Of a DNA stretch of 64,000 bases, positions 16,781 through 34,154 are shown in pieces; position 1 is the stretch's first letter, and each line of letters begins with the position of its first letter. The notes beneath the pieces are model-generated. The model worked only from the letters and a program-made list of their open reading frames with translations, was not told where the DNA came from and did not search any database. The translations under genes were made by a program, and so were the position numbers. The DNA comes from Phycisphaerae bacterium (GTDB lineage Bacteria > Planctomycetota > Phycisphaerae > UBA1845), in contig JAJDDY010000069.1 of the NCBI GenBank assembly GCA_029260075.1, positions 1-64,000 on the forward strand, in the 5' to 3' direction.

Positions 16781-16796
16781 ATCGATCTCTCTCTTA

Positions 16797-16921: not shown

Positions 16922-16943
16922 GGTCGGCGCGTGATAGGCTGCG

Positions 16944-18254
16944 CTACGATTTTCCAAGATCCAATGCCATAATGTTCTTGCGATCGCGAACGAATAGGGT
17001 CTTGCCGACGAGCGTCGGCGCTGCCCACGCGTAGCGTTCCGCCACCTTACACTTCGACAGAACGGTCATATCCTTCGGCGTTATTTTGGCCAAAGCAAGG
17101 TGCCCGTCTTCGTCGAGAAGGATGAGCTTGCCGTCGGCGTACACACATGTCGACTTGGAAAACCCGCGCTCGCGCCAAGCTACCTTCCCCGTATCGGCGT
17201 GGATGCACATGAAGAACGCCGGACCGGAGTCGCCACTAGATCCGTAAACATACTCGCCGAGTCGTATCATGTTGCCATGATGAACACGCATCTTCCGCGT
17301 ATACCAGACTTCGTTCGTAGTGGTCTTGCCGCCGGACTTGGTCAACCGAACCATGCGACTACCCGAGTCGTACGCCGACGAACAGAACAACGACTCCTTG
17401 CCGTCCCAAAGCGGCGTAGCCAAGTTGGCGCCGGCAGGTTTGAACTCGTGACGCCATAACAGTTCTCCCGACTTGGGCTTGACGCCGATCATTTCCTCCC
17501 GCATCAAGAACACGAGCTGTTCCTCGCCTTTGAAATTGATCAAGATGGGAGAGGAATGCGTGATCGGATCGTCCTGACTCTTCCATATCGGGCTACCACT
17601 AATTTGATCGAACGCGATGAGCGATTGGCCGTTAGCCGGCCCGTCGCCCTCGGAATCCGTGTCATCGCCGGATCGATCGCGGTCCACCGGCACGATGAGC
17701 GTGTTCTGGTAGGGAATGGGGCTGGCGCTGTAGCCTCGAACAGAAACCTTGGTTCCGAATTCAGAGACGAGGTCGTGCTTCCATAGAACCTTGCCGTTGG
17801 TCTTGTCGAAACAGTGGAAGACCATGTTCGTGCCGATGGTGTAGAGGCGATCCTCGACCACGACCGGCGTGGAGTTCGGACCCACGCCGAATTGCATCAG
17901 GAGGCCCTTGGTGGGGGATGGGTTCTTGTGCTCCCAGATCGTCTCGCCCGTCTTGGCGTTGAGCGCGACGGTGAACTCGTCTTCACCCTGACGGTACATC
18001 GTAAACAACCGACCGTTGTCGACGACGATCGTTGCGTACCCGTCGCCCAATTCGCGATGCCACAGCTTGTTCGGTCCGGCGTCAGGCCACGAGTCGGCCA
18101 GCTTGTCGGACTTCACCATGAAATCTCGGTTCGGACCGCCCCATTGGCTCCACTGAGCCCGTGCGGGTTGAAGTTGAACCGATGACGCGATAGCACAAAG
18201 AGCGGCCACAACCAAGAACCGGTCGAACCGAGCACGCGAGAGTCGTGTGATCAT
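16944..18254 (-). CDS. Secreted PQQ-like beta-propeller protein, paralogue 2
   Basis: 436 residues, the same length as paralogue 1. Signal peptide FLVVAALCAIASSVQLQPA with cleavage near ARAQ, then WSQWGGPNRDFMVKSDKLA. Shared landmarks with the neighbours are KLWHRELGDGYATIVVDNGR, LFTMYRQGEDEFTVALN, GETIWEHK, VWYTRKMRVHHGN, VAWRERGFSKSTCV and a terminal LFVRDRKNIMALDLG. The sequence similarity and equal length indicate recent tandem duplication. It is likely periplasmic or surface-exposed; ligand unknown. It starts 37 bases after the end of paralogue 3, so the array may be one transcript apart from the palindrome between copies 1 and 2. Confidence 0.85.
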   Translation of the reverse strand: MITRLSRARFDRFLVVAALCAIASSVQLQPARAQWSQWGGPNRDFMVKSDKLADSWPDAGPNKLWHRELGDGYATIVVDNGRLFTMYRQGEDEFTVALNAKTGETIWEHKNPSPTKGLLMQFGVGPNSTPVVVEDRLYTIGTNMVFHCFDKTNGKVLWKHDLVSEFGTKVSVRGYSASPIPYQNTLIVPVDRDRSGDDTDSEGDGPANGQSLIAFDQISGSPIWKSQDDPITHSSPILINFKGEEQLVFLMREEMIGVKPKSGELLWRHEFKPAGANLATPLWDGKESLFCSSAYDSGSRMVRLTKSGGKTTTNEVWYTRKMRVHHGNMIRLGEYVYGSSGDSGPAFFMCIHADTGKVAWRERGFSKSTCVYADGKLILLDEDGHLALAKITPKDMTVLSKCKVAERYAWAAPTLVGKTLFVRDRKNIMALDLGKS

Positions 18255-18291
18255 CTACATTCCCTTTCCAGCAAGAACGCGTTGTCGCAGA

Positions 18292-19590
18292 TCAACCGGA
18301 GGTCTTGCCGTCCGACGTCCGCCCGGTCAGATCAAGGGCCATGATGTTCTTCTTATCGCGTACGAAGAGCGTTCCGCTGTCTATGGTTGGTACTGTCCAC
18401 GCCACCTTGTCGAGCAAGGGCACCTTGGCATGCACGGTCAGCTTCTCGGGCGTCACCGTCGCCAAACCAAGCTGACCATCTTCATCCAGAATTATCATCT
18501 TGCCGTCGGCGTACACACACGTGGCTTTGGCGAACCCGCGTTCGCGCCAGGCGATCTCACCGGTCTTGATATTGATGGCGGAAAAGAAGCTCGGACCCCG
18601 TGATCCGCTGGACCCGTACACATAGTCGCCAATGCCAACTGACGTCACGTGATAGAGCTGGATTTTCTTCGTCGACCAAATCTCTTCAACGCTGGTCTTG
18701 TCACCGCTAGGCGTCAGCTTCAAACCGCGCGATCCGGGGCCGTTCGAAGAAAGGAACAGCGTGTTGCTCTCTTCGTCCCACGTGGGCATGCACACGTTCT
18801 GCTTCCATTGGTTCTTAATGCCATACTGCCACTTGAGGTCGCCGTTTGTGGGATCCATGCCGATCAGCTCCGTGGCCATGAACGTGACGAGTTGATCCTT
18901 GCCACCCACCTTGATGATCTTCGGCGTCGAGTAGCTGTTTTCGAAGGATTCGCTCTTCCATGCGGTCTTCCCGGTTTCCTGATTGAACGCCACAACGCTG
19001 GCACCCTTGCCACCCACGAGGATGATTACGGTGTCGCCGTACGCGATGGGGCTGGATGAATAGCCGTGGTTAAGTTTGTTGCCCTTGAAGCTGCCCCAGA
19101 GATTCTTCCCCCAGAGTTTCTTGCCATTCGTTTTGTTCAGGCAATGCATTTTTCCGGAGACGCCGATCGTGTAAATACGATCGCCGACGATAAGCGGCGT
19201 GGAACGGGGTCCGCGACCGAACTGATCAACGTGACCATTGGCCGGTTGGTTGTTGTATTTGTATTCCCAAACCGTCTCACCGGTATCAGCGTCCATGGCG
19301 ATGACGACTTCCTTCTTGTCGGCCTTGTCGCGATACATCGTGTAGAGGCGACCACCGTCCGCAAGGATGGACGAGTAGCCTTCGCCGAGTTCACGCGTCC
19401 AAAGCTTCTTCGGGCCGTCCGCAGGCCAGCTATCCGCCAGGCCGGTGGAATCAGACTTGAAGCTCTGTTGAGGTCCGCCCCATTGCGTCCATTGGGCGCG
19501 GGCTTCGGTGGCCATCAATGGGAACGCACCAACGATCAACGAAAGCGTCAAGGCCCGGTATGTGCGAACTAAATGGTGTTGTTGCTTCAT
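18292..19590 (-). CDS. Secreted PQQ-like beta-propeller protein, paralogue 3
   Basis: 432 residues from ATG 19590. The signal peptide RALTLSLIVGAFPLMATEARA leads into QWTQWGGPQQSFKSDSTGLA. Blade signatures include AMDADTGETVWEYK, CLNKTNGKKLWGK, AFNQETGKTAWKS and INIKTGEIAWRERGF. The end (FVRDKKNIMALDLTGRTSDG) is slightly longer than in its paralogues. The open frame continues 51 codons upstream without support, and the signal peptide decides the start. No PQQ-dehydrogenase residues or c-type heme. Its role with the other copies is unknown; differences between copies are concentrated in loops between blades, as expected if they bind different partners. Confidence 0.85.
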   Translation of the reverse strand: MKQQHHLVRTYRALTLSLIVGAFPLMATEARAQWTQWGGPQQSFKSDSTGLADSWPADGPKKLWTRELGEGYSSILADGGRLYTMYRDKADKKEVVIAMDADTGETVWEYKYNNQPANGHVDQFGRGPRSTPLIVGDRIYTIGVSGKMHCLNKTNGKKLWGKNLWGSFKGNKLNHGYSSSPIAYGDTVIILVGGKGASVVAFNQETGKTAWKSESFENSYSTPKIIKVGGKDQLVTFMATELIGMDPTNGDLKWQYGIKNQWKQNVCMPTWDEESNTLFLSSNGPGSRGLKLTPSGDKTSVEEIWSTKKIQLYHVTSVGIGDYVYGSSGSRGPSFFSAINIKTGEIAWRERGFAKATCVYADGKMIILDEDGQLGLATVTPEKLTVHAKVPLLDKVAWTVPTIDSGTLFVRDKKNIMALDLTGRTSDGKTSG

Positions 19591-19661
19591 CGTGTCATAT
19601 TCTCCTGTCAAATGGCCCAACAGGCTCGAACACCTGTCGCATGAACGTCTATTGTGAACAA

Positions 19662-20927
19662 CTAGCGCCCAAGATTCAGCGCCATGATGGTGTTCTTTCC
19701 ACGCAGGTAGAGCGTTTTGCCCACGAGCGTCGGCACCGTCCAAGTCTGCGACTTGAACAACTGCACGTTGGATCGAACTTCGTATTTCTCTGAACTCGCG
19801 TTGGCTAAGCTCAGGTTTCCGTCCTCGTCGAGCGCGATGATCTTACCGTCCGCGTGCAGCAGCATCGACTTCTTGAACCCGCGCTCGCGATACGCGATTT
19901 CGCCGGTCTTGGCGTCGATGGCGGTCATGAATGAACCGCTGTCCGATCCTGCGCAACCGATCAGTTGATTACCGACAGGCAACACGTTGCCCTGTCCCAC
20001 GCCCATCTTTCGGTTGGCCCAGATTTCGTCGACAGTGGTCTTGCCACCGGCGTCGGTCAGCTTCAACACGCGACTACCCGCTTCTCCGCCGGCTGTGACG
20101 TACAGGTGCCTGTTCTTCGCATCCCACAGGGGCGAGGAGATGTTCGTCCGCCATTGGTTCTCATGTTCATGCGACCACTTCAGATCGCCGGTCTCGACAT
20201 CGACCCCAACCACGGCGCGATCGTGGAGCAACACAACCTGATACGTCTTGCCGACCTTGATGACCAACGGCGACGAGTAAATGTTTTGGAAATCCTGACG
20301 CTTCCAAAGTAGGGATCCGGTGTCGAGATCAAACGCCATCATGCCGCATCCCTCGCCACCGACGGCCACAATTAATTTGTTCTCATGGGCGACCGGACTC
20401 GATGAAAACCCGTAGTGGGGAGGCTTGGCTTGGTACTCCCCCATCAGGTCGTGCGACCAGTGGGTCTTGCCCGTGGCCTTGTTCAGGCAGGTGAGGCGTC
20501 CGGCGAACCCGACCGTATAAATGCGATCGCCCACGACGAGCGGCGTAGAGTTTGGACCCGTGCTGTAGCGCGTCCGGACACCCTTCGGCAGCGGCGCGCT
20601 GTACTTGTGCGACCACACGGTCTCGCCATTCTTAGCGTTCAGTGCAACGATGAACTCGTTATCGCCCTCGCGGTACATCGTGAACAGACGTCCCCCATCG
20701 ACCACTACCGACGACAAGCCGGCACCGAGTTCGCGGCTCCAAATCTTTTCAGGACCAGCGTCAGGCCACTTGTCGGCGAGGCCTTTGGAATCGCTCATGA
20801 AGTCACGGTTCGGACCACCCCATTGCGACCACTGACCGAAGGCCGTCGAACCCATCAGCATGAGCGAAGCCGCACCGACGGCGCTAAGCAAACGGATGGT
20901 TCCCTGGTTACGAATTGTTCGCTGCAT
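19662..20927 (-). CDS. Secreted PQQ-like beta-propeller protein, paralogue 4
   Basis: 421 residues from ATG 20927. Signal peptide LLSAVGAASLMLMGSTAFG, then QWSQWGGPNRDFMSDSKGLA. Blades: ALNAKNGETVWSHK, CLNKATGKTHWSHDLM, AFDLDTGSLLWKR, GVDVETGDLKWSHEH and the end LYLRGKNTIMALNLGR. The start is chosen by the signal peptide, since the frame runs 63 codons further up. The four copies 1-4 share gene order, direction, length and the repeated phrases on both ends. Probably periplasmic, function unknown. Confidence 0.85.
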   Translation of the reverse strand: MQRTIRNQGTIRLLSAVGAASLMLMGSTAFGQWSQWGGPNRDFMSDSKGLADKWPDAGPEKIWSRELGAGLSSVVVDGGRLFTMYREGDNEFIVALNAKNGETVWSHKYSAPLPKGVRTRYSTGPNSTPLVVGDRIYTVGFAGRLTCLNKATGKTHWSHDLMGEYQAKPPHYGFSSSPVAHENKLIVAVGGEGCGMMAFDLDTGSLLWKRQDFQNIYSSPLVIKVGKTYQVVLLHDRAVVGVDVETGDLKWSHEHENQWRTNISSPLWDAKNRHLYVTAGGEAGSRVLKLTDAGGKTTVDEIWANRKMGVGQGNVLPVGNQLIGCAGSDSGSFMTAIDAKTGEIAYRERGFKKSMLLHADGKIIALDEDGNLSLANASSEKYEVRSNVQLFKSQTWTVPTLVGKTLYLRGKNTIMALNLGR

Positions 20928-21075
20928 CAGCTTCGTCTCCTCTCGTAGGGCGGGTGTCGCATCGACCCCGCATTGATCCGACGGCCACTCGGCCCATTGA
21001 CCACGTTTTTTATCAAAGCGCGAAACCGGCCTGCGTACAATCAATGCGCAGGCGTCAAAGGCGCGAGCCGCCCGA

Positions 21076-22272
21076 CTAGTCCTTACGGTCCCGCTTCGAT
21101 CCGGCACCGAAAGCATAAATCACACCATCCTCGTTGCCAATAATCAATCGCCCCCCAGCTACCGCCGGCGACGCACTCACCGGCGCCCCTGTATCGAAGC
21201 GCCACTTTTCTTTTCCCGTGCTCAGGCTGAGTTCGTAGATGCGCCCATCGGACGAGCCCACGAACACGCGATCGCCCACGACGACGGGGGATGAATCAAC
21301 CCGCCCCTTGGCCACGAATGTCCAGAGCGCCTTACCGGTTTTCGCGTCGAGGGCACGAATTCGCTTGTCCCGCCCGCCTACGACCACTTTGTCAGCCACG
21401 ACAGCCGCTGAGGCCATGAACGGAAACTCACGATCCTTGTCGCGATAGACCCACAGGGTCTGCCCGCTACGCCAGTCGACGGCGAGAATATGGCTGCCGT
21501 AGGTGCCGATATAGGCGTGCGATCCGACGATGGCTGGTGACGCACCCGCCACCGATCCCATCGTGATTTCGCGGATAGACGTCCCGTCGGCCAGCTGAAG
21601 AACATGTAAGAACTCGTCACACCCGGCTACGAGCACCGCGCCGTCGACAATGGCCGGTGTACCGTGTACGCGACCCGCTGTTTCGAATTTCCACAACAGC
21701 TTGCCGTCGTTCGCCGAAACGCAATAGACGAAACCATCGTACGACCCGAAGACCACTCGGTCGCCGACGTGGTTTGGCGACGAGTTGATCTGCGCTTCGC
21801 TCGCAAAGGTCCAACGACCCTTACCAGTATCGGCGTCGACGCCGTGCAACACACCGCCATCATCACCAACCAACACGAGATCACCGACAACAGTCGGAGA
21901 AGACCGAACCATCTCCCCGGCCTTGTACTTCCACTTCAGCGTCCCGGTGGCGGCGTCAAGAGCATAGAGAAACTCATCGTCACACCCCACATACACCGTG
22001 CCGTTGGCGATTGCGGCTGAGGAAATTACGGCCTCCGGGGCATCGAATTTCCAGATCAGTTGAAGCTTGCCCGGCAGCGACGATCGCACGACCCCGGTAA
22101 GCGCCGGACCGCCGCGGAACATCGACCAGTTAGGACTGGCGGCAGGCTTCGTATCGGATTCACCAGCGAAAGTGATCGACGACGTAACGAAGACCGTCGC
22201 CAACACGATGAGCGAAACCGCCAGTCGTCGCATCCTCCGCGCCACTTCATGATGTGCTGAGTCATTGATCAT
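21076..22272 (-). CDS. PQQ-like beta-propeller protein of a different subfamily (BamB-like)
   Basis: 398 residues. A signal peptide (RLAVSLIVLATVFVTSSITFAG) is followed by NWSMFRGGPALTGVV and about seven short blades built on the pattern SSPxVVGDxVxVGxxDGxxYAxDxxTGxxxWxF, for example YALDAATGTLKWKYKAGEMV and SSPVVVGDRVFVGSSDGRIY. These blades are shorter and more regular than those of the four copies next to it, so it belongs to the YncE/BamB-like repeat type rather than to the tandem family. ATG 22272 is used; ATG 22233 at the signal peptide is possible but has its GGAGG touching the ATG. Function unknown; no lipobox was seen. Confidence 0.8.
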   Translation of the reverse strand: MINDSAHHEVARRMRRLAVSLIVLATVFVTSSITFAGESDTKPAASPNWSMFRGGPALTGVVRSSLPGKLQLIWKFDAPEAVISSAAIANGTVYVGCDDEFLYALDAATGTLKWKYKAGEMVRSSPTVVGDLVLVGDDGGVLHGVDADTGKGRWTFASEAQINSSPNHVGDRVVFGSYDGFVYCVSANDGKLLWKFETAGRVHGTPAIVDGAVLVAGCDEFLHVLQLADGTSIREITMGSVAGASPAIVGSHAYIGTYGSHILAVDWRSGQTLWVYRDKDREFPFMASAAVVADKVVVGGRDKRIRALDAKTGKALWTFVAKGRVDSSPVVVGDRVFVGSSDGRIYELSLSTGKEKWRFDTGAPVSASPAVAGGRLIIGNEDGVIYAFGAGSKRDRKD

Positions 22273-22372
22273 TACGATGTCATAGTCGAAAGTCAGAACT
22301 CGACGAACCAATACCCCTTCGCACTATTTGTCGAACCAATTCGCGTTATCCTCAATGTGGCTTCAGCCGAGA

Positions 22373-22566
22373 CCGGGTGGCGTCTCTTCAGAGGTGGGGA
22401 CGTCGAATCCGCTACAGCCAAAACCATACGCCATGCACCGAGCCGCGCCCGTGAGGAAGCGGTCCATCAGCGAGGCAAGAAACACTCCCTCACGGTCGCG
22501 GCTCGGCTCATCGCAAAGTCCGATCACCGCCGGTCCTCTGACACATCTTCTCGCACACGTTCTTAG
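22373..22566. repeat. Family B half-element followed by family A palindrome, copy 4
   Basis: GGGTGGCGTCTCTTCAGAGG with GGACGTCGAATCC is a variant of family B. It is followed by a family A copy (22437-22566) with arms GAGCCGCGCCCGTGAGGAAG and TCCCTCACGGTCGCGGCTCG and the end ACACGTTCTTAG. The TTA within this end is the stop codon (TAA on the minus strand) of the EamA-like gene. Confidence 0.75.
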
Positions 22567-23030
22567 TTCGGCTTAAAGCGCAGCGCCACCGCCGCGCCCA
22601 CGGCCGCAAGGAGAATACCGAAGTAGAACCACACGCTCGGGGGTTTCGCCGGGCGCGACCATACCATGGCTACAATCGTGTTTACGATCGGCGCGCCCGC
22701 AAAGACCAGAGGGGCCACATAAATCGGCTTGCCGCCGTATTTCATAGCGAACACAATCCCCAACGCCCCGATGGCCCCGAGGATTCCCGCGTACGTGGAC
22801 ATCGACACGCCCTTGCTCGGAAAGTCGAGCGGTTCAGTCTTGGCTACGAACAGATAGCCGAGCACGGCTATCGACACGAGCAGGTAGGCCAAACCCACGA
22901 ACAGGAAAGCCCGCAGCGCGCTGTTGCCACCCAAGGCCGACTGCCCATGGTGCAGCGTAGGCACGTACGCCCCCCAGCAGAGGATCGTCAAGACGACAAA
23001 AAACGGCCAAAGCTTTTCACTGTGTTCCAC
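22563..23030 (-). CDS. Small EamA/DMT-like membrane protein
   Basis: 155 residues with four to five predicted membrane helices: WPFFVVLTILCWGAYVP (6-22), ALRAFLFVGLAYLLVSIAVL (38-57), YAGILGAIGALGIVFAMKYG, IYVAPLVFAGAPIVNTIVAM and WFYFGILLAAVGAAVALRF. The layout is that of a half-size EamA (drug/metabolite transporter) unit, since full members have ten helices, so it would act as a dimer. The substrate is unknown. Its stop codon is provided by the end of a family A palindrome, which suggests that the element inserted at or trimmed the 3' end. Confidence 0.75.
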   Translation of the reverse strand: MEHSEKLWPFFVVLTILCWGAYVPTLHHGQSALGGNSALRAFLFVGLAYLLVSIAVLGYLFVAKTEPLDFPSKGVSMSTYAGILGAIGALGIVFAMKYGGKPIYVAPLVFAGAPIVNTIVAMVWSRPAKPPSVWFYFGILLAAVGAAVALRFKPN

Positions 23031-23855: not shown

Positions 23856-24281
23856 CTACGCTTCCAACATGCCGCGCAAATCGCCGGGAATCGGAATCGG
23901 CTGAAACCGATCTTCAACGATCGCACAGCATACGGCCGTAACCCGCCCGAGCGCCAATCGCGTTTCGTCTCGACGAAAATCGATCTCGAACGTCACCGAC
24001 CGATTGCTCACCTTCACAACCGAAAGCATCAGGGCTAGCTCATCTTCGAATCGCGCCGGCGCGGAAAACTCGCAACTGGCCGCCACGCGAGGCCAACTGA
24101 TTTCCTGTGCCCCGTTCCGAGCGAGAACGCTGGTGCCCTTTGATCGCCAAAACGCATGCTCCACTTCTTCCATCATGCGGTAGTAGTTGGCGAAGTGCAG
24201 AATCCCGGCCATGTCCGTCTCGGCAAACTGCACGCGCCGGGTTGTCTGAAACGTTGCCGCCATGTCATCCACATTCCGCAT
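23856..24281 (-). CDS. Hotdog-fold acyl-CoA thioesterase (4HBT/YbgC type)
   Basis: 141 residues with the 4-hydroxybenzoyl-CoA thioesterase signature RVQFAETDMAGILHFANYYR near residues 17-36, where the Asp of ETDMAG is the expected catalytic residue, followed by the long hotdog helix (MMEEVEHAFWRSKG). It probably hydrolyses an acyl-CoA or aryl-CoA thioester in the cytoplasm. An alternative start at ATG 24263 removes six residues. It lies downstream of the transporter, separated from it by a family A palindrome, and reads in the same direction as the chorismate-lyase operon, so a role in releasing a 4-hydroxybenzoyl-type thioester is attractive but unproven. Confidence 0.85.
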   Translation of the reverse strand: MRNVDDMAATFQTTRRVQFAETDMAGILHFANYYRMMEEVEHAFWRSKGTSVLARNGAQEISWPRVAASCEFSAPARFEDELALMLSVVKVSNRSVTFEIDFRRDETRLALGRVTAVCCAIVEDRFQPIPIPGDLRGMLEA

Positions 24282-24436: not shown

Positions 24437-26131
24437 CTACGACTCAGCGCCGGTTGACGCCACCAATTCCGGGACGTCACATTCGGCACGCAGTGACGGC
24501 GGCTTACCGAAGAACTTCTCAATCGTCGCACCGGACGGCCCTTGGGTCATCAACGACACAACCACCATCGCCAACGTAGAAATCCCCACCATGCTCGCCG
24601 CCGGCATCATGCCCAAGACGAGGTATTCCCTGTTCGCACCATAGCCCGACTGCGCGAAGAACCACATACACGCAGCCCCGGCGCTCAATACACACGCATA
24701 CGCCCCTGCTTTGGTTGCCCGTTTCCAATAGACGGCCGCAAACACAAGCGGGAACAGGCTGGCGAAACCACTAAAGCACCATACCGCCATTGTGAACACA
24801 CTTCTTGTCTTGAACTTGACGGCCACAATGTACGTCACCACAACAATGAGCACCACAAACACACGACCCCAGATAACCTTCTGGCGATCCGACAACTTGT
24901 CATGGCCGATGTAGTGGCCCACGATGTCGTTGGTGAAGATGCTGCCGACGCACAGAAACTGCGAGTCAAGACTCGACATGATGGCGGCAAGAATTCCCGC
25001 GGTCAGCAAGCCGCCCAAGAGGGGCCCCGCCATCTTCTTCACCAGAATCACCAGAACGGCGTTGGGGTTACTCCACCCCGCTGGAATAACCGGTTTGCCT
25101 CCCATCACCGCAGAGGTAGCCCAGACCCCGATCAACACACAGGGCACCCATACAATCATGATCATGAGCGGGTGGGCGATCACCGATAGTCGAAAAGATT
25201 TCGCGGATCGCGCCGTAAGCCAATGTTGGAAGAGGTGCGGGAACATACCCACGCTGAGCGGAATGAACAGATAGCTCCAGAATGCGAGCTTCGACAAACC
25301 CTTCGGTTCCATCGGCTTGATAACTGCGATCGTCTTGTCCGCCTCCCACGCCGCCAATCGCTCTTGATATTGCGCGACGTCCGCCTCCGACACCCCGGCT
25401 TGGAGTCGCGTCGGGTTGTACTGCTCGACAAGCTGCGTCGCCTTGTCCATCCCGCCGAGCTTGTTGGCGATCACAAAGAACGTCACACAACCGAGAATCA
25501 TGAAGACGATGGTTTGAAACGCATTCGCCCAGGCTGTACCGCGCACCCCACCGAAGAACACATAGATCATAACGACGAGGCAAATGACGGCGGCGCCAAG
25601 CCAATAGGGAACCGAGCCGTTGAGTCGTGCCACTTCATTGGGGAAAAAATCGGGGAACGCACCGGCGGTGATACCCTGAACCACCGTGCCCGAACTGATC
25701 ACTCCGATCAAGAGATAGGGAATGACCAGCCCAACCAGCATCGGGAAAAGGACCAAGCCGATTTTGTCCGACTCGAATCGGTCGCGAAAGAACTGAATTT
25801 GCGTGACGTATCCGTATCGCGCGCCGAACGACCAGAGCTTGATTCCTACTAAGAAGAAACAGGCGGAGTGAATAATTCCCGACGAAGACGCCATCCGACC
25901 GTACACGCCTACGCCGCCGGCGAACGCTTCACCACTGCTGCCCACGAGCGCGAAGGCGGTCATGGTCGTGCCGAATAGGGACATCAACAGAAGAAACGGA
26001 CCGATTCCGCGAGACGCAAGAAAAAAGTCTGCGGCCGTACCTCGGAAGAACCTGCTGCTGAACAAACCCAAACCCAGCAAGAGCGCGAGGTAACAACTGA
26101 TTACGATGACCGCAGTTAGACCCGCACTCAT
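24437..26131 (-). CDS. Sodium:solute symporter (SSS family)
   Basis: 564 residues with 12-13 predicted membrane helices and SSS-family landmarks: the N-terminal YLALLLGLGLFSSRFFRGTA, FFLASRGIGPFLLLMSLFGT, VFFGGVRGTAWANAFQTIVF (the typical GGxxAVxWTD-type region) and ILAAIMSSLDSQFLCVGSIF. It would import or export an organic solute with sodium at the cytoplasmic membrane. Its start overlaps the DUF3311 gene by four bases (ATGA), and it is the last gene of a tight operon with the flavin enzyme, chorismate lyase and radical SAM gene. That position suggests the solute is a precursor or product of the pathway; the substrate cannot be read from the sequence. Confidence 0.9.
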   Translation of the reverse strand: MSAGLTAVIVISCYLALLLGLGLFSSRFFRGTAADFFLASRGIGPFLLLMSLFGTTMTAFALVGSSGEAFAGGVGVYGRMASSSGIIHSACFFLVGIKLWSFGARYGYVTQIQFFRDRFESDKIGLVLFPMLVGLVIPYLLIGVISSGTVVQGITAGAFPDFFPNEVARLNGSVPYWLGAAVICLVVMIYVFFGGVRGTAWANAFQTIVFMILGCVTFFVIANKLGGMDKATQLVEQYNPTRLQAGVSEADVAQYQERLAAWEADKTIAVIKPMEPKGLSKLAFWSYLFIPLSVGMFPHLFQHWLTARSAKSFRLSVIAHPLMIMIVWVPCVLIGVWATSAVMGGKPVIPAGWSNPNAVLVILVKKMAGPLLGGLLTAGILAAIMSSLDSQFLCVGSIFTNDIVGHYIGHDKLSDRQKVIWGRVFVVLIVVVTYIVAVKFKTRSVFTMAVWCFSGFASLFPLVFAAVYWKRATKAGAYACVLSAGAACMWFFAQSGYGANREYLVLGMMPAASMVGISTLAMVVVSLMTQGPSGATIEKFFGKPPSLRAECDVPELVASTGAES

Positions 26132-26364
26132 GCTTGGCCTCCGTCGCTTCCGGCGCCGGTCATGGATTCGGTCACGTCTGCATCCACGGGCCAGCAGTAC
26201 TTAACCGCCAGCGCCCACAGCGCCGCCGCCGCCATCGACACACACGCATGGTAGGCAAGCGTGATCGGCAGGAACCCAAACACAAGCCTCGAAGACTCCC
26301 ACCACCAGAAGTCTTGATGGACGATCGTCAGCAGCACGATCAAGACGTACACTGTATTCTTCAT
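26128..26364 (-). CDS. DUF3311-type small membrane protein paired with the SSS transporter
   Basis: A 78-residue protein with two membrane helices: YVLIVLLTIVHQDFWWWESS and LVFGFLPITLAYHACVSMAA. The phrase HQDFWWW followed by LVFGFLPITLAYH is the DUF3311 signature; this family is known as a small partner encoded just before sodium:solute symporters. It overlaps the flavin-enzyme gene upstream and the symporter gene downstream by four bases each, so the three are translationally coupled. Probably a structural or assembly subunit of the transporter. Confidence 0.85.
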   Translation of the reverse strand: MKNTVYVLIVLLTIVHQDFWWWESSRLVFGFLPITLAYHACVSMAAAALWALAVKYCWPVDADVTESMTGAGSDGGQA

Positions 26365-27620
26365 GCCGTAGCCATTCCTTCTGATCCCGTCGTCGCGGGC
26401 TGCGTCACGTGGTCACGCAAGACATCAAACACCTTACCCACATCGTTGTTGAACACGTCGCCGATCAAGAGACGAACGATGTGGTCGCGACATTCGGGGT
26501 GCGCCTTGTTGAACTTGGCGAAGCTGAACGAGCGATCGTAGTACACATGCACGAGTTGCTCAATCAACTGCATTCCCGCAGCCAGTCGAGGCCCGAACGA
26601 ACCCAAGCGGTCGCCGCTGAGATCGCCCGCTTGCAGCGCGTCATGGATCGCATCGGCTGCGAACTCTCCGCTCTTCAGAGCGAGAAAGACGCCGGATGAA
26701 TAGATCGGATCGAGAAAAGCGAACGCATCACCGATCAACACCCACCCGTCACCGGCGACGCGGCGGGCGCGGTAGGAAAAATCGCTAGTGACGAAAGCTT
26801 GACCGACGCGCTCGGCGTCTGCCAAGCGGCGCTCGATGCCCGGACAGTGGCCAATTTCCTCTTCCAACGTCGACAGCGGATCATCTCCGCGACCGGTGAA
26901 CAGATAAGACGGTGGGGCCACCACACCGATGCTCGTGAGGCCGTCGGGCAGTGGAATGAACCAGAACCATCCCTGACGATCGGCCGTCTGAATGATGATC
27001 GTGGCTCCGGCGTTTCGACCTTCGTCGCGTTTTGCGTTTTTGTAGTAGGCGTAGATGGCCCCGTTCTTCAACGTCTCATGCGGCTGACGAATTCCGAGCT
27101 GTCGCGCAAGCAGCGTCGACATACCGGACGCATCCACAACGACCTTGGCGCCGATCGCTTCTGTCGACCCGCGCGCGCCAATGTTCACGCCGACGGCGCG
27201 ATCGCCGTCGAAATTGACGCTCGATACGCGAACGCCCTCGCGCACTTCGGCGCCGTGTTGGCGGGCGTTATCGAGCATCATCTGATCGAATCGGTCACGA
27301 GGCACCTGCCACGTAACCGAGTGCGCACCCGGATCGCGATCGGTAAAGAAATATGGCTGAGAGTCTTTGCCCGAAGCCGACACGAACTGCACGCTCTCTT
27401 TGCGTGGGAAGTTCGCAGCCCCAAGCTTGTCCAACATGCCCAATCGTTGAAACGTGCTGTACGATTCCGGCATCAACGATTCACCAATGTGGTGTCGCGG
27501 CAGGCGATTGGCTTCGAGGATGAGCACGCGATGACCGTGATCCGCCAGCAGCGTACCGACCGTAGCGCCGGCCGGACCGCCACCGATGATGACCATGTCG
27601 TATTGATCAGGATTGGGCAT
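26361..27620 (-). CDS. FAD-dependent oxidoreductase with flavin-halogenase motifs
   Basis: 419 residues. The N-terminal Rossmann motif is GGGPAG at 13-18, followed by IGESLMPES (45-53). Two signatures point to the flavin-dependent halogenase branch of the geranylgeranyl-reductase superfamily: GWFWFIP at 217-223, which fits the WxWxIP motif, and FLDPIYSSG at 302-310, which fits FxxPxxSxG of phenol/pyrrole halogenases. A lysine in FPRKES (K74) is a candidate for the catalytic lysine. It starts immediately after the chorismate-lyase stop and overlaps DUF3311 by four bases. Halogenation of a 4-hydroxybenzoate-like phenol is the favoured role; a plain epoxidase or hydroxylase or a ring reductase is the alternative, since WxWxIP is sometimes kept in non-halogenating relatives. 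Confidence 0.75.
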   Translation of the reverse strand: MPNPDQYDMVIIGGGPAGATVGTLLADHGHRVLILEANRLPRHHIGESLMPESYSTFQRLGMLDKLGAANFPRKESVQFVSASGKDSQPYFFTDRDPGAHSVTWQVPRDRFDQMMLDNARQHGAEVREGVRVSSVNFDGDRAVGVNIGARGSTEAIGAKVVVDASGMSTLLARQLGIRQPHETLKNGAIYAYYKNAKRDEGRNAGATIIIQTADRQGWFWFIPLPDGLTSIGVVAPPSYLFTGRGDDPLSTLEEEIGHCPGIERRLADAERVGQAFVTSDFSYRARRVAGDGWVLIGDAFAFLDPIYSSGVFLALKSGEFAADAIHDALQAGDLSGDRLGSFGPRLAAGMQLIEQLVHVYYDRSFSFAKFNKAHPECRDHIVRLLIGDVFNNDVGKVFDVLRDHVTQPATTGSEGMATA

Positions 27621-28238
27621 CTACGAATCGTCCTTCATGCAGTCGGCTTGGTCTGACGCGTGACCACCGTACGACAAACCGGTGACGATTTCGAGCAGGG
27701 TGATCGCCGGCTTGCCGTCGCAGTGGATCGTTCCCACCCGGCCGTACAAATCACCGTCACCATCGCGATCAAACCCGGTGGGGAGCGCGCGACCGGCTGG
27801 AAAGCGCAGGAACCATTGCGGCTCGATCTGTCGTAGCACGTTTTCGGAAATCAAGATTTCGCCAAGCGGTCGGCGTTGGTCCACGATCGCGGAACGCACG
27901 GCGTTGGACATCAGGGCAAGGTCGATGCGGACTACACCAAACTCGACAACTCTATCCGTGGCGCCCAGCGTGAGCACTATGCTGCGCTGATATACCTGAC
28001 CCTGATGTAGATGTTGCAGCACCGTGAGCTGAGCGGGCGTTCCGTGAAACGCTTCGAGCGTGGTGGTCATGTGGTTTCGATGGACGAGAAGATCGCGCGC
28101 CGGCGCAGGAATTGCGTCCGGCGTAACGAGTTCCCAACATGCGGGCTCGCAATTCGGATCGACCAACCCGTCGGTGAGGCGGGAAAGGGTTTCGTCGAGG
28201 CGAACGACGTCTAATGGTTTGGACCCTGCGACGTTCAT
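27621..28238 (-). CDS. Chorismate pyruvate-lyase family protein (4-hydroxybenzoate synthase)
   Basis: 205 residues of the DUF98/UbiC-like chorismate pyruvate-lyase family, which converts chorismate into 4-hydroxybenzoate and pyruvate in the cytoplasm. Visible landmarks are HMTTTLEAFHG (56-66), an Arg in VYQRSIVL (R85) in the place of the substrate-binding Arg, VEFGVVRIDL (98-107) and RPLGEIL (123-129), whose Glu127 is the expected catalytic glutamate. The length is right for the family. It overlaps the radical SAM gene upstream by four bases and abuts the flavin-enzyme gene downstream. Since no ubiquinone genes surround it, a dedicated secondary-metabolite role is more likely than respiration. 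Confidence 0.82.
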   Translation of the reverse strand: MNVAGSKPLDVVRLDETLSRLTDGLVDPNCEPACWELVTPDAIPAPARDLLVHRNHMTTTLEAFHGTPAQLTVLQHLHQGQVYQRSIVLTLGATDRVVEFGVVRIDLALMSNAVRSAIVDQRRPLGEILISENVLRQIEPQWFLRFPAGRALPTGFDRDGDGDLYGRVGTIHCDGKPAITLLEIVTGLSYGGHASDQADCMKDDS

Positions 28239-29566
28239 GTATAACGAATATCTCGATGCTCGGGTTCGAAGAAACGCGGGAGCAGCGCATCGACGCGAAG
28301 CAATCCGTCGCGCGTTAGAGAAACTTGGTCACCTTCGATCGTCGCCCACCCCTGATCAACCAGCGACGCAAACGCCGAAGCGAACGCGTCAGTAATCTCC
28401 GTGGAGAACTTGTCTCGAAAGTACTTCGCGTCAATTCGCCCCAGTTTCAACTGAAGGATCATTTCACGAATCAGTCGCTGTCGGTCGGTCACGGGTAGCG
28501 CCCGCGCGATGGGCAACTCGCCTCGATCGAGCGCAGCCACGTAGTCGTCCCACTGGTCAAGGTTTTGAAAATGAACCCCGTCGAGGTATGAAAAAGAGGC
28601 GACGCCCGCGCCGATCATGTCCGCGCCGCGCCAGATTGAATCACGGTAGACGAATCGGCCATGGGTCGATGGTTTGACTACGGTATATGCACTCGATACG
28701 CGATACCCCGCCTTTTCAAACGTGCGAAATGCGTAGTCGACCCACGCACGCTTTGTCGACCAATCCGCGACGGACGGCGCCGCGTCGGACGTCTCGCGCG
28801 AAAAGACCGTGTTGAACGGTAGTTCCATCTGATAGACCGTGAGGCTGTCGGGTTCGAGTTCAAGCGTTCTGTCGACGGCCTCTTTCCACTTGGCTTCGGT
28901 ATCGCCCATCATGCCCGCGATCAAATCAATGTTGATCTGGTCAAAGCCCACCTCGCGTGCCCAGTCGTACGCACGAAAAATTTCCGGCGACTTGTGTGCC
29001 CGGCCGTTGAGTGCCAGGATGTCGTCATCGACGTGCTCGATACCCAGACTCAACCGCGTGACGCCGATTCTCTTGATGGCCTCGAGCTTCCCCTTCTTGA
29101 TCGTGCCCGGTTCACATTCGAACGTGACCTCTTTGGCTTGATCCCACGCCCAATGTTCGGCGATGCGACCGATCAGACGCTCAAGTTGTTCACTGGAAAG
29201 AAACGAAGGCGTGCCACCGCCGAAGTAGACGAACTCGAACTCCCGATCGCGCAGGGCGTTTCGCTCGGCATAGAGCGCCGTCTCGCGCGCCAACGCTTGG
29301 AGATACACGTCCACATCGCTCGAATTCTTCTCCGTGTAGACACGGAAATAGCAGAACTTGCACCGCTTGCGGCAAAAGGGAATGTGAAGGTACAGGCCGA
29401 CGGGGCGGGTGTCGCCGCCGACCTCAGATTCGTCAGCCTTCGTGTCCAGCGCCTTCAGCGCAGCCGGCGCGTGGTCCGTCGACCAGACCGAGTACGGCGG
29501 GTAGTTGGAGATGAAGTAACTTCCGACTTCCGTCTTGGCTGTATCGTCAACGATGTTCAACGCCAT
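28235..29566 (-). CDS. HemN/HemW-like radical SAM enzyme
   Basis: 443 residues. The radical SAM cluster is CRKRCKFC (C65, C69, C72), giving the CxxxCxxCxF form of HemN relatives, followed by VYFGGGTPS (113-121), FECEPGTI and a C-terminal HemN_C domain (QLKLGRIDAKYFRDKF onward). Besides coproporphyrinogen oxidase and the HemW chaperone, this family includes methyltransferases and cyclopropane-forming enzymes of natural-product pathways. It is the first gene of a four-base-overlap operon with the chorismate lyase, which argues for a pathway role and against heme synthesis. A 265-base gap without genes or repeats separates it from the alcohol dehydrogenase upstream. Confidence 0.85.
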   Translation of the reverse strand: MALNIVDDTAKTEVGSYFISNYPPYSVWSTDHAPAALKALDTKADESEVGGDTRPVGLYLHIPFCRKRCKFCYFRVYTEKNSSDVDVYLQALARETALYAERNALRDREFEFVYFGGGTPSFLSSEQLERLIGRIAEHWAWDQAKEVTFECEPGTIKKGKLEAIKRIGVTRLSLGIEHVDDDILALNGRAHKSPEIFRAYDWAREVGFDQINIDLIAGMMGDTEAKWKEAVDRTLELEPDSLTVYQMELPFNTVFSRETSDAAPSVADWSTKRAWVDYAFRTFEKAGYRVSSAYTVVKPSTHGRFVYRDSIWRGADMIGAGVASFSYLDGVHFQNLDQWDDYVAALDRGELPIARALPVTDRQRLIREMILQLKLGRIDAKYFRDKFSTEITDAFASAFASLVDQGWATIEGDQVSLTRDGLLRVDALLPRFFEPEHRDIRYT

Positions 29567-29831: not shown

Positions 29832-31007
29832 TTAGCAGAGCGCCATACTATAGACTTGTAGTAAGTCGTCGGACGTTACCGGCGTGGGGTTGAACCGCGC
29901 CGTCCACTGCTCTGATGCTTCCACCGCAAGGGTCGGAAGCATGTCCGCTGGCACGTCGCAATCGCACAACCGCCGTGGCAACTCCGCTGCTTGCAACATC
30001 GACTCCACACGCACCGCCAACGCTTCCGCATCGACGCCCAGCAGGTCATAAGGATTGTCGCGGCCCCGCGAGTTGAATCTGATTACATGCGGCAGCATCA
30101 CCCCGACGGCCACACCATGCACGATGCCCAAGTGTGCTGTCAGTGGGTTGGCACAGGCGTGCGCCGCGCCGAGCATCGAGCGCTCGATGGCTGCACCGGC
30201 CAGGTGCGCGCCGAGTAGCATGTCCGACCGGGCATCGGCGTCGGTCGCGTTCTTGATCGACAGTTCGAACGAGCGATCGAGTCGCACCCACGCCTGACGC
30301 GTACACTCCAGCGACGAGTCGTTGCGCTTGGTTGTCGCCGCCGTTTCCACTGCGTGCGCGACCGCGTCGATGCTTGTCGCTGCTGCCACACCCCTCGGTT
30401 GCGTCTCGGTCAAATCCGGGTCGAGAATCGCTACGCGACAGGCTGCCTTCTTATCGCCGCAGGCCATCTTCTGATGCGTCGCTGGATCGCTAATCAATGC
30501 GAACGACTGCGCTTCGCTTCCCGTTCCTGCCGTGGTCGGTATGGCGATCATCGCGACCATAGGCTTGGTCGCCTTACCCACGCCCCAATAGTCCGCGATG
30601 CGCCCGCCGTTGGTGTAAAGAAAATTGATCCCCTTGGCGCAGTCCATCGAGCTGCCGCCGCCGAGTCCGACGAGCAAATCGATGTTGTGATGGTGCGCGA
30701 CAGCCACGCCGGCGTCGACATGTTTCGTGGTCGGATTCTCCTCGACGCCGTTGAACACGGTGACGATCATGCCCGCGTCGCTGAGCGAACGAACCGCACG
30801 CTCGACGTGGCCGGCACGCTCGATACCAGGGTCGGTGACCAACAGCACGCGCAACCCGCCTTCGGATTTCGCTTGCGCCCCAACTTGCTCAAGCGTCCCC
30901 GCGCCGAACAACACACGTGGGCGACTGTGTTTGAGGATTTCCGGCAGGGCGTCGACGACGCCTCCGGATGGATCGGGATCGGAACCTGCGGGTTGCGGTG
31001 CGCTCAT
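29832..31007 (-). CDS. Iron-containing (type III) alcohol dehydrogenase
   Basis: 391 residues. The NAD(P)-binding signature GGGSSMD (116-122) and the following PTTAGTGSE are diagnostic for the iron-dependent alcohol dehydrogenase family. Metal-ligand candidates are the Asp of ATSIDAVAHAVET, its His, and two His residues in GIVHGVAVGVMLPHVIRF. It should interconvert an alcohol and an aldehyde or ketone with NAD(P)H in the cytoplasm. ATG 31007 overlaps the stop of the aldehyde dehydrogenase by four bases (ATGA), so the two are translationally coupled and likely share an aldehyde intermediate. The open frame further upstream is ignored because it runs inside the dehydrogenase gene. Confidence 0.88.
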   Translation of the reverse strand: MSAPQPAGSDPDPSGGVVDALPEILKHSRPRVLFGAGTLEQVGAQAKSEGGLRVLLVTDPGIERAGHVERAVRSLSDAGMIVTVFNGVEENPTTKHVDAGVAVAHHHNIDLLVGLGGGSSMDCAKGINFLYTNGGRIADYWGVGKATKPMVAMIAIPTTAGTGSEAQSFALISDPATHQKMACGDKKAACRVAILDPDLTETQPRGVAAATSIDAVAHAVETAATTKRNDSSLECTRQAWVRLDRSFELSIKNATDADARSDMLLGAHLAGAAIERSMLGAAHACANPLTAHLGIVHGVAVGVMLPHVIRFNSRGRDNPYDLLGVDAEALAVRVESMLQAAELPRRLCDCDVPADMLPTLAVEASEQWTARFNPTPVTSDDLLQVYSMALC

Positions 31008-32425
31008 GCCGCCGACTCGGTCTGAAAAGCGCGTTGACGGTACAAGTGCTCGAACAGATTGCCCTCGTGCGGCTGATCCCAGCTCAGCTGCCACGTCGGA
31101 ATCGCACCGACGTTGAGTCGATCGATATTGGTAGACGCCATGAGCGATCGGCGTAATGCAGCGTCATTAGTAATAGCCGAAACGACGAGCGATGGACCGA
31201 TCGCATCCGCCATGTCGGCTGTTGGACATTCGACGACCGATGCGAAGGGGAACAGAAACTCGCGATTGACCAGCGGATGCTCTCGATCTTCGCACCACAC
31301 GGCGGTGGGCAGTAGGTAGGCGATGCGCCCATGCTGAACCAGTCGCGACGAACCACGAAGTTGCTCGGTGATGTCCGTCGCACCGTTGACGCGAAGATCA
31401 TTATCAATCACCGCCGACATGCTCTCGGCCATGGCACGATTGGCGAACGCCGCTACGGATGCGTTCGGATCGTCCACAGGAAGCGCTTCAACATCGGCGA
31501 AGCGTTTGGCCAACGCCTCGGCGATCGCTTGACCATGTCGCGGTGTCCACACCGCCGATGCGTTGATGCACGATCGACCGCCGTTGGCGGCGATGGATGT
31601 CGCGATGAGATCCAGGTGTCGAGACCAGTCGTCGGCCAAGTCGTCCCCAAGAATAATCTTCGAATAGCCCGGGCCGTGAATCTCAACACGCGGATCGTGC
31701 TTCCAAGGATCGGTTGTGGCTGATCCGCCGAACAGCATCGACCGATTCGTCGATCGCAGTAGCTCGCCAGCGCCCGCGTGGTCGGTGGGATAGAAACCGA
31801 ACGCCTCACGCGGCAGGCCGGCGGCGACGAGCGATTCGATAATCCGCAGCGGTGTCCATGGTTCTTCGCGGCCGGGCTTGAGCACGATCGGTGCCTTAAG
31901 TGCGATCGCAGGTAACCAAAGGCCATGCACACCGGGCGAGTTGCTCGGAAGCACCGCACCAAACACGCGTCCCTCGCGAAAAAAGCTCAGCGACCGACCC
32001 TCGTGTGTTCCATATCCCTTATCGATAATGTCGAGATCGAACCCTCGCGTCAGCCCGGCGATGATGACGTCCATATCCGCCAGCACGCGACGAATTTTGT
32101 CGGCGTTGGATCGGCAATACGAAACCGGCATTCCCGTCGTGGCTGATATCTGACGAATGTAATCGTCGAACGATTGCGTTTCATTCCCGCAAGGCAGCCT
32201 GCCGGTCATGAAGAGATCGGCGGCCTTCTTCGCCATCGACAGAATCTCACGCACCGTCAGCGATTCGAGAACCGTGTCATCCATGCGGTGTACGTCGCGC
32301 ACGATCATGCCAACGTTGACCTGACTGACCTCAGCCACAGGCTCGCCGGTGGCGTGGTGAAGCAGCGTCGTATGGCCCACGCTTGTGTAAGCCTTGCCGA
32401 ATCGTAGGGCTGGTATGTGAAGCAC
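31004..32425 (-). CDS. Aldehyde dehydrogenase family protein, probably acyl-CoA reductase
   Basis: 473 residues with an aldehyde-dehydrogenase fold. The catalytic Cys lies in NGGRSCINAS (C286), the cofactor region is VLPSNSPGVHG and VLKPGREEPWTP (K183). The usual ELGG glutamate motif is replaced by EIHGPGYSKI, which resembles the GPGN-type motif of CoA-acylating dehydrogenases, so reduction of an acyl-CoA or acyl adenylate to the aldehyde is likely (inference). The start is GTG 32425 with AAGGAAA six bases upstream. Between an AMP-forming ligase upstream and an alcohol dehydrogenase overlapping downstream it completes an acid-to-alcohol reduction set. Confidence 0.82.
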   Translation of the reverse strand: MLHIPALRFGKAYTSVGHTTLLHHATGEPVAEVSQVNVGMIVRDVHRMDDTVLESLTVREILSMAKKAADLFMTGRLPCGNETQSFDDYIRQISATTGMPVSYCRSNADKIRRVLADMDVIIAGLTRGFDLDIIDKGYGTHEGRSLSFFREGRVFGAVLPSNSPGVHGLWLPAIALKAPIVLKPGREEPWTPLRIIESLVAAGLPREAFGFYPTDHAGAGELLRSTNRSMLFGGSATTDPWKHDPRVEIHGPGYSKIILGDDLADDWSRHLDLIATSIAANGGRSCINASAVWTPRHGQAIAEALAKRFADVEALPVDDPNASVAAFANRAMAESMSAVIDNDLRVNGATDITEQLRGSSRLVQHGRIAYLLPTAVWCEDREHPLVNREFLFPFASVVECPTADMADAIGPSLVVSAITNDAALRRSLMASTNIDRLNVGAIPTWQLSWDQPHEGNLFEHLYRQRAFQTESAA

Positions 32426-32458: not shown

Positions 32459-32842
32459 TCAGATACCGGTAATTATGAAGCTGTACTCAGTCGCCTTGTA
32501 GCCGAAAACCAAGGCACCTATAAAGGTGGCTTGGCCCACAAAAATCGCCAGCGTATTGTTCCGCAATATGCCCACGATAGTAAGGACCAATGAATAGGGC
32601 ACGCAGCCTAGAGCAAGCGAGCGGGCAACGTTGCAAACGAGCCATCCCGAGAACACAAGGTTCGCGGCCTGCACGCTAGTCGGGCGGATGATCCCGCCTC
32701 CCTGCAGGTCCATGATCTCCAGGTTGTTGGTCATGAGCGAAACTTTGAACCAAATCAATGCTGCGAACCCTGTGACTGTGGCTGCGATAGGCGGAACGAG
32801 CCACCTCGTCGCTACTCTACGGACTGTCCTAGTCTCATTCAT
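32459..32842 (-). CDS. Hypothetical membrane protein
   Basis: 127 residues with three to four predicted membrane helices: VPPIAATVTGFAALIWFKVS (16-35), ANLVFSGWLVCNVARSLALG, VPYSLVLTIVGILRNNTLAI and FVGQATFIGALVFGYKATEY. No family was recognised. It lies 33 bases upstream of the aldehyde dehydrogenase on the same strand and may be cotranscribed with it. A family A palindrome separates it from the acid ligase upstream. Its role is unknown. Confidence 0.6.
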   Translation of the reverse strand: MNETRTVRRVATRWLVPPIAATVTGFAALIWFKVSLMTNNLEIMDLQGGGIIRPTSVQAANLVFSGWLVCNVARSLALGCVPYSLVLTIVGILRNNTLAIFVGQATFIGALVFGYKATEYSFIITGI

Positions 32843-33053: not shown

Positions 33054-34154
33054 CTAATACACCCCCTCCACAATCGGTTTCGCGAATCCGGAAAACGGTC
33101 GCACGTCGGCAATGCCGTCCCAAGGCCAGCGATCACACGGTGGACAGCGAACGCCTTCGTCGCGCTCCAGGAATCGCGGTAAGAAGAACTCTTTCGTGAG
33201 CGTCGTCAGTCGCGTTCGACCCAGTGCGCCGTATTCCGCAAGTTGATCCGTATTGTCCGGGTCGACCACTTCCATCATCGCCCGTGGGCTTGGGGCGTGA
33301 TAGATAATGCTGTAGTTGTCCACCGGGTCGAACGGTTTGTGGCACGCAAGACCCATAAGCGTGTTGCCATAGGTCGGCACAAAGTCGATCGCACCTTCCA
33401 ACAGTTCCTCGCGTGCGAATCGATGGAACTGAGCGGTAAGCTGAGTGCCACCGCAGAACACGCCTTTGATGCCCATGCGCTTCAGCGATACGCGATCGCA
33501 CAGGGCTTCGAGCAGTTTCGGTGTCGTGAACAAGCATTGAATATTTTCATGAGCCCGCAGTAGCGTCAGCCCCTGATTGACCACGTGGTCGCGGTATTCA
33601 TACATCAGGTCCATGCGGCCGCTCTTGATCAGCTTGACGACCCAGCGCGGATCCATATCGACGGTAAAGCAGATGCCGCCTCGATGTTGACAAAGATGCT
33701 CGACGGCCAAACGGAGTCGGCGCGGGCCCGATGGACCGAGCATCAGCCAATCGGTTCCCTTGGGGAAACATTCATCCGAGAGGGATTCACTGAAGAGTTC
33801 GTAATCAATACGAAAGTCGTCGATGTTGATACGCGCCTTAGGCACGCCCGTGCTTCCACCGGTTTCGAACACGAACACCGGTCGGTCGGCTAGGCCCTTG
33901 GGCACCCATTGACGAACGGGACCGCCGCGAAGCCATTCGTCTTCGAAGGGCTCGAACTTACCCAGATCGTCGTAGCAGTTGACCTCGCGACGTGGATCCC
34001 AGCTAAGCTTCGAGGCATAGTCAAGCCAAAACGGGCAGCCCGTCTTCGGGTCGAAATGCCATTGAACAATCTCGCGCGTGTGCTCATCGAGACGCTTCTT
34101 GGCGGCGGCGACGCGCTGGGCGAGTGATGATGAGGTTTGTTCTGCCACAGTCAA
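33054..34154 (-). CDS. AMP-forming acid ligase (LuxE/PaaK-like)
   Basis: 366 residues. The ATP/AMP-binding loop ETGGSTGVPKAR lies at 97-108, and the later FVPTYGNTLMG is in the place of the family's YG-T-E motif. The protein is short (acyl-CoA synthetases have 430-550 residues) and seems to lack much of the C-terminal domain, as in LuxE-type acyl-protein synthetases. It probably activates a carboxylic acid as adenylate for transfer to CoA, a carrier or directly to the dehydrogenase. Start TTG 34154 with an AGGA seven bases upstream. Substrate unknown; 4-hydroxybenzoate or a fatty acid are the options. Confidence 0.78.
   Translation of the reverse strand: MTVAEQTSSSLAQRVAAAKKRLDEHTREIVQWHFDPKTGCPFWLDYASKLSWDPRREVNCYDDLGKFEPFEDEWLRGGPVRQWVPKGLADRPVFVFETGGSTGVPKARINIDDFRIDYELFSESLSDECFPKGTDWLMLGPSGPRRLRLAVEHLCQHRGGICFTVDMDPRWVVKLIKSGRMDLMYEYRDHVVNQGLTLLRAHENIQCLFTTPKLLEALCDRVSLKRMGIKGVFCGGTQLTAQFHRFAREELLEGAIDFVPTYGNTLMGLACHKPFDPVDNYSIIYHAPSPRAMMEVVDPDNTDQLAEYGALGRTRLTTLTKEFFLPRFLERDEGVRCPPCDRWPWDGIADVRPFSGFAKPIVEGVY

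Follow-up and report, generated by a model that had tools for sequence, protein, structure and literature searches.

A Flavin-Dependent Halogenase-Type Enzyme Within a Conserved, Predicted Aromatic-Compound Pathway of Planctomycetota

Gene Content of the Halogenase Locus

The window analyzed here is a 64,000-nucleotide stretch of contig JAJDDY010000069.1 (positions 1 to 64,000, forward strand) from a Phycisphaerae bacterium (GCA_029260075.1), and the gene in question is a 419-residue open reading frame (ORF), running from ATG to stop at 27620 to 26361 on the minus strand, that had been flagged as a halogenase from the sequence alone. This halogenase belongs to a conserved aromatic-compound pathway that is found in distantly related planctomycetes and, in part, in acidobacteria and verrucomicrobia. 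The halogenase itself adds a member to an established enzyme family; the more interesting result is the conserved pathway around it, which lies beyond the original prediction, as that covered only the halogenase and an adjoining lyase. The genes at the center of the locus, with the grounds for each assignment, are as follows:

24437–26131, minus strand: sodium:solute symporter (Pfam SSF, 4.6e-43; present in 27 loci)
26128–26364, minus strand: DUF3311 small subunit, with 4-bp overlaps with the halogenase and symporter genes (a small ORF occupies this place in 14 loci)
26361–27620, minus strand: flavin-dependent halogenase-type enzyme (motifs, PDB relatives, fold, tree)
27621–28238, minus strand: UbiC/DUF98-fold protein, probable chorismate pyruvate-lyase (fold, conserved residues), with a 4-bp overlap with the next gene
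28235–29566, minus strand: HemN/NocN-like radical S-adenosylmethionine (SAM) enzyme (cysteines C65, C69, and C72; family matches)
29832–31094, minus strand: iron-containing alcohol dehydrogenase (Fe-ADH), probably converting aryl aldehyde to aryl alcohol (Pfam Fe-ADH, 7e-51; conserved position)
31004–32425, minus strand: aldehyde dehydrogenase-superfamily reductase (Pfam; EhpG-like position beside the EhpF-like gene)
32459–32842, minus strand: small hypothetical protein between the aldehyde dehydrogenase and adenylase genes (no Pfam or NCBIfam match)
33054–34154, minus strand: EhpF-like ANL adenylating enzyme (phmmer match to EhpF, 3l2k/3hgu; co-occurrence)

In the series of radical SAM, UbiC-like, halogenase, DUF3311, and symporter genes, each neighboring pair abuts or has a 4-bp overlap, and the five are therefore very likely co-translated. 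The same order is repeated in related planctomycetes, with the Fe-ADH, aldehyde dehydrogenase, and adenylase genes upstream; the arrangement of these latter three is also present in Candidatus Uabimicrobium amorphum.

The Halogenase-Type Enzyme

The protein carries a GGGPAG stretch (residues 13–18) that satisfies the GxGxxG motif for binding of flavin adenine dinucleotide (FAD), and G13, G15, and G18 are invariant in the alignment of homologous loci. The original prediction had singled out GWFWFIP (217–223) and FLDPIYSSG (302–310) as the WxWxIP (WFWFIP, 218–223) and FxxPxxSxG signatures, and K74, one of 11 lysines, as the candidate catalytic lysine; both motifs lie exactly at those residues. 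Conservation was counted over 83 homologous loci from Planctomycetota, Acidobacteriota, and Verrucomicrobiota, in which K74, W218, W220, and I222 occur in every homolog and P223 in 82 of 83, while F302, D304, P305, S308, and G310 occur in all 82 rows that cover this stretch. A rough estimate from amino acid frequencies places the joint occurrence of both motifs in a random protein of 419 residues at ∼1e-6, and the match is not due to chance, because the motifs are invariant across homologous loci. Two orthologs from other genomes (G116, C97:2235–3473, and G119, C48:11130–12353) each have one in-frame stop, reflecting either a pseudogene or a sequencing error.

The Pfam match is to Trp_halogenase (5.8e-27), and the closest PDB chains by sequence are halogenases: FasV (2.2e-69), followed by Mpy16, CndH, Bmp2, ChlB4, PltA, and CmlS. 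K74 pairs with a lysine in all five printed PDB alignments, including those to FasV, Mpy16, CndH (residue 76), and Bmp2, in agreement with its proposed catalytic role. The best NCBIfam model is the CmlS equivalog (NF033113), which scores 211.5 bits against a cut-off of 900, and the QhpG equivalog (NF049967) scores 150.4 bits against a cut-off of 240; orthology to either CmlS or QhpG was dropped, as both scores fall under the curated cut-offs.

An AlphaFold model built from 46 sequences has a mean predicted local distance difference test score (pLDDT) of 93.4. Its nearest structures by VIA-align Z are FasV (49.7), Bmp2 (48.2 and 48.0), PltA (48.0), ChlB4 (47.9), Mpy16 (47.5), and an uncharacterized Cytophaga flavoprotein, 3nix (47.4), while the hydroxylases p-hydroxybenzoate hydroxylase (PHBH), PnpA, and kynurenine monooxygenase (KMO) reach at most 35.2. 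By both sequence and fold, halogenases rank well above PHBH, KMO, and the geranylgeranyl reductases, so that the comparison with known halogenases proposed in the original prediction finds them to be the nearest relatives, rather than hydroxylases or ring reductases. In a tree with FasV, Mpy16, CndH, Bmp2, SgcC3, and aryl polyene halogenases, the family forms one clade with no characterized member among the references used; the exact positions of Bmp2 and Mpy16 are unsure, due to their long branches. As judged from its sequence and modeled fold, the gene encodes a flavin-dependent halogenase-type enzyme that belongs structurally with PltA, Bmp2, CndH, and FasV and forms a separate clade.

The UbiC-Like Neighbor

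The gene directly upstream (28238–27621, minus strand) ends with a stop codon immediately before the halogenase ATG, with no gap, and was found to be real, as the original prediction had assumed in calling it a chorismate lyase. No match was recovered among Pfam and NCBIfam models, and for this reason the assignment rests on fold and conserved residues. The predicted model (pLDDT 84) matches the DUF98 protein 2nwi (Z 16.1) and product-bound UbiC, 1fw9 (Z 11.8), as well as the UbiC-related effector domains of GntR regulators (PhnF, DasR; Z 11–12 and lower). All 33 aligned homologs have R85, P124-L125-G126, R167, and E183; R85 and E183 presumably correspond to the catalytic residues R76 and E155 of UbiC. 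When the UbiC-like alignment was used as a profile against the PDB, only weak matches to 2nwi and spurious ones to Nup50 were returned. A profile search of the halogenase loci recovered five UbiC-like genes (including that of L089) from Verrucomicrobiota, Acidobacteriota, and a Phycisphaera; in several loci, most of these genes had been hidden in plain ORF calling by longer, spurious ORFs that overlap them. Taken together, the fold and the conserved residues suggest that the neighbor is a probable chorismate lyase yielding 4-hydroxybenzoate.

Conserved Partners and Phylogenetic Profile

The radical SAM enzyme resembles HemN along its entire length (1olt, 1e-54), and it also matches the methyltransferase NocN (6e-38). 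A second HemN-like paralog elsewhere in the genome (contig C88, 8288–9631) has no accompanying halogenase and is located beside XdhC-like and MobA-like genes and others that resemble molybdenum hydroxylases.

Using a threshold of E 1e-60, the radical SAM family was identified in 54 of 244 Planctomycetota genomes (the genome containing the window was not counted), and this halogenase is present in all 54, including ∼18 where the pair is split between contigs or separated by a long distance. The UbiC-like gene occurs in 38 of these 54 genomes and in none of the remainder. The EhpF-like profile was run on 80 selected genomes, comprising the 54 pathway genomes and 26 others, and the gene was found in 53 of the 54, the sole exception being a fragmented genome that is 80% complete. 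It also appeared in two of the remaining 26 genomes: G120, which is highly fragmented and has the halogenase without a radical SAM match, and G107, where the match is weak (9e-34). These counts are not independent, as the genomes are related by sequence, but several families contain both presence and absence. Halogenase homologs also occur in Acidobacteriota and Verrucomicrobiota, some of them with a radical SAM partner.

In the EhpF/EhpG system, an aryl carboxylate is activated by the first enzyme and then reduced by the second. The adenylase here is homologous to EhpF over its full length (phmmer, residues 24–366 against 22–366 of 3l2k; 3e-44), and it lies beside an aldehyde dehydrogenase gene, as ehpF adjoins the aldehyde dehydrogenase gene ehpG in phenazine clusters (PMC11278526). 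Combined with the Fe-ADH, this pair therefore predicts the reduction of an aryl acid to the aldehyde and then to the alcohol. Unlike EhpF/EhpG, the pair here is in a non-phenazine context, together with the probable chorismate lyase, the radical SAM enzyme, and the halogenase. Literature searches returned no papers joining HemN, chorismate, and a halogenase, or describing such a planctomycete pathway, and the conserved pathway appears to be undescribed so far as the literature could be searched.

The Wider Neighborhood

Several further genes on the same strand flank the central group:

15470–21116, minus strand: four tandem secreted PQQ_2 beta-propellers (15470–16957, 16944–18254, 18292–19743, and 19662–21116)
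21076–22311, minus strand: secreted BamB-like beta-propeller (in other families and phyla, homologs lie immediately before the radical SAM gene)
22563–23030, minus strand: EamA-like membrane protein (weak EamA match of the homolog in locus L053)
23856–24281, minus strand: 4HBT-superfamily thioesterase (Pfam; at least 8 loci)
34466–35926, minus strand: secreted PQQ_2/BamB-like beta-propeller
35919–38219, minus strand: secreted PQQ_2 beta-propeller with a C-terminal extension
38246–39553, minus strand: PaaK-like aryl-CoA ligase, a possible pathway member (4r1l, 5e-59; a similar family, c16, adjoins the halogenase elsewhere)

In three loci from Acidobacteriota and a Phycisphaera (L083, L053, and L062), a glycosyltransferase gene follows the halogenase and an FtsX-type permease gene occurs further on, and L053 and L083 also have a thioesterase. 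The glycosyltransferase and permease hint at a glycosylated, exported product.

Proposed Pathway and Comparison With Known Systems

The reading that we favor, with somewhat more confidence than doubt, is a two-component, FADH2-dependent halogenation of a phenol derived from 4-hydroxybenzoate, predicted from the sequences and models above as one step of the conserved pathway. In characterized enzymes, reduced flavin and O2 give a C4a-hydroperoxyflavin, halide is converted to hypohalous acid (HOX), and HOX moves ∼10 Å to a conserved lysine (PMC10696468). By this scheme, the UbiC-fold neighbor would free 4-hydroxybenzoate from chorismate, and a stand-alone flavin reductase encoded elsewhere in the genome would provide FADH2; the genome has two flavin reductases (PF01613), both outside the operon. 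The halogenase would form the C4a-peroxyflavin and convert Cl– or Br– to HOX, which would move to K74 and be held there for electrophilic attack on 4-hydroxybenzoate, or on a derivative of it, ortho to the phenol group. The carboxylate would then be adenylated by the EhpF-like enzyme and reduced to the aldehyde by the adjacent aldehyde dehydrogenase, and Fe-ADH would reduce the aldehyde to a benzyl alcohol, with the radical SAM enzyme contributing one further, apparently indispensable modification. The product is probably a chlorinated or brominated 4-hydroxybenzoate derivative. The original prediction had considered a phenolic substrate plausible, and the idea of a phenolic aryl acid gains support from the EhpF-like and aldehyde dehydrogenase partners, with the halogenation itself being predicted.

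Several observations weigh against this reading. In 16 of the 54 pathway genomes, the UbiC-like gene falls under the threshold (E 1e-10), and the source of 4-hydroxybenzoate is therefore either not universal or not recognized. No member of the halogenase clade has been assayed, so far as could be found, and no carrier protein or flavin reductase was recognized in the operon. Homologs at 35–41% identity lie in aryl polyene clusters or in similar surroundings. A halogenase signature is also no proof of a halogenated product by itself, because of two precedents: in the arcuflavin cluster, the annotated halogenase arcA adjoins the chorismatase arcB, and the structural passages on its pigment mention no halogen (PMC3949708), and QhpG has the halogenase fold, yet dihydroxylates tryptophan (PMC7876137).

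The chorismate lyase-halogenase logic is shared with the bmp5/bmp6 module, in which the chorismate lyase Bmp6 makes the 4-hydroxybenzoate on which the halogenase Bmp5 acts (PMC7918430). Bmp5 differs in being a single-component enzyme that gives decarboxylated bromophenols, whereas the protein here is most like two-component halogenases, and the carboxylate appears to be retained and then reduced by its partner enzymes. The pyrrole halogenases PltA, ChlB4, Mpy16, and Bmp2 act on carrier-bound pyrrole. They share the fold (Z 47–48), the lysine, WxWxIP, FxDPxxSxG, and a C-terminal region aligned to about residue 406, but are only ∼30–34% identical, and lie on a separate branch (with the placement of Bmp2 and Mpy16 unsure); no carrier gene was recognized here. 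FasV, CndH, and SgcC3 have all of the motifs in common with the protein here; FasV is the best PDB match (34% identity), and the C-1027 plasmid carries an SgcC3-type gene with 38.9% identity over 324 residues. These enzymes, in contrast, belong to actinobacterial and myxobacterial natural-product clusters and lie outside the clade. QhpG, from quinohemoprotein cofactor maturation, is likewise a halogenase-fold flavoprotein in a system with a radical SAM enzyme, but it acts on a protein tryptophan, and the radical SAM enzyme here is of HemN type.

As in arcA/arcB, the aryl polyene and xanthomonadin systems place a halogenase-type gene beside a chorismate-using enzyme. They differ from the locus here in their ketosynthases, LolA, and MMPL exporters, none of which were recognized in the conserved neighborhood of the halogenase, and in their separate tree branch. 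An aryl polyene origin of this gene was rejected, given that related planctomycetes have a separate aryl polyene-type halogenase; this distinct gene occurs in aryl polyene-like clusters at loci L122, L123, and L124, and in the latter two it keeps FxxPxxSxG without WxWxIP. Elsewhere in the window (51266–55854) there are three beta-ketoacyl-synthase-like genes, one on the plus and two on the minus strand, near which no LolA or MMPL exporter was recognized; the gene at 54670 shares 33% identity with an aryl polyene ketosynthase.

As a rule, halogenase genes have a scattered, strain-specific distribution. The clade described here co-occurs almost without exception with a radical SAM enzyme and an aryl-acid reductase pair in many planctomycete families, including in genomes where the genes are unlinked. 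The prediction that follows is of a halogenated phenolic metabolite that is widespread in phyla from which very few metabolites are known. We hypothesize a link to the halogenated 4-hydroxybenzoate products already seen in planctomycetes, for which these would be candidate enzymes. As the gene is present in Candidatus Uabimicrobium amorphum SRT547, a named strain whose genome is complete, the prediction should be testable by metabolomics.

Alternative Readings

The protein could instead combine the halogenase fold and motifs with another flavin reaction (hydroxylation, oxidation, or a cryptic halogenation that is later lost), such that the end product is halogen-free. We regard this as unlikely, though it is the strongest of the alternatives: the aryl polyene halogenase-like genes and arcuflavin arcA belong to pathways for which the texts consulted report no halogenated product, QhpG provides the same fold as a dihydroxylase alongside a radical SAM enzyme, and the QhpG, LodB, and GoxB models all match the halogenase significantly, though under their cut-offs. 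Against this, K74 and WxWxIP are retained over three phyla, while WxWxIP is lost in the aryl polyene paralogs noted above, and in fold the protein is closer to true halogenases than to hydroxylases of any kind. It is less probable again that a true halogenase acts here on a different substrate (a lipid, a polyene, or a carrier-bound or radical SAM-made compound), with 4-hydroxybenzoate being a mere co-building block, as in an alichondrichlorin-type ester. Carrier-dependent halogenases are among the nearest fold relatives, and a thioesterase and PaaK-like ligase are nearby, which would suit such a substrate; however, acyl carrier or fatty-acyl genes were not recognized in the conserved core, and the conserved adenylase is EhpF-like, of a family known from aryl acids.

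The propellers around the operon raise another possibility, in which the co-located secreted PQQ_2 propellers, having no pyrroloquinoline quinone (PQQ) to use, would receive an aromatic prosthetic group or ligand from the pathway. Eight of the 17 PQQ_2 genes of this genome are inside the 64-kb window, with seven around the operon on the same strand; PqqC was not found in this genome, and 243 of the 244 Planctomycetota lack a match to it, the sole match being under the cut-off. Several families and phyla have a BamB-like propeller gene immediately before that of the radical SAM enzyme, and QhpG offers a precedent for cofactor maturation. Each of the pathway genomes has at least five strong PQQ_2 hits (median 10, versus 1; within-family permutation p ∼1e-5), with counts per genome capped at the few top-scored candidates. 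This association weakens to p 0.05 when five operon-borne propellers are subtracted. Sulfatases, used as a control, follow a similar but weaker trend (p 0.10), and no significant difference is seen in the PQQ_2/sulfatase ratio (p 0.145), so that the association is due in part to genome complexity. More than 12 PQQ_2-rich genomes lack the pathway, which, along with the sulfatase control, also weakens any general dependence of PQQ_2 propellers on it, an idea that was set aside. We therefore consider a propeller ligand to be very improbable, and the bolder form of the idea, a cross-phylum pathway whose product serves secreted PQQ_2 propellers as a halogenated phenolic cofactor or ligand in bacteria unable to make PQQ, and thus a new quinoprotein-type cofactor system, to be a slightly longer shot still. 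The 'empty quinoprotein' family TIGR04528, tried as the partner propeller family, had no genomes above its cut-off. The eighth propeller of the window, also secreted and PQQ_2/BamB-like, is located apart from the others, at 48279–49688 on the plus strand.
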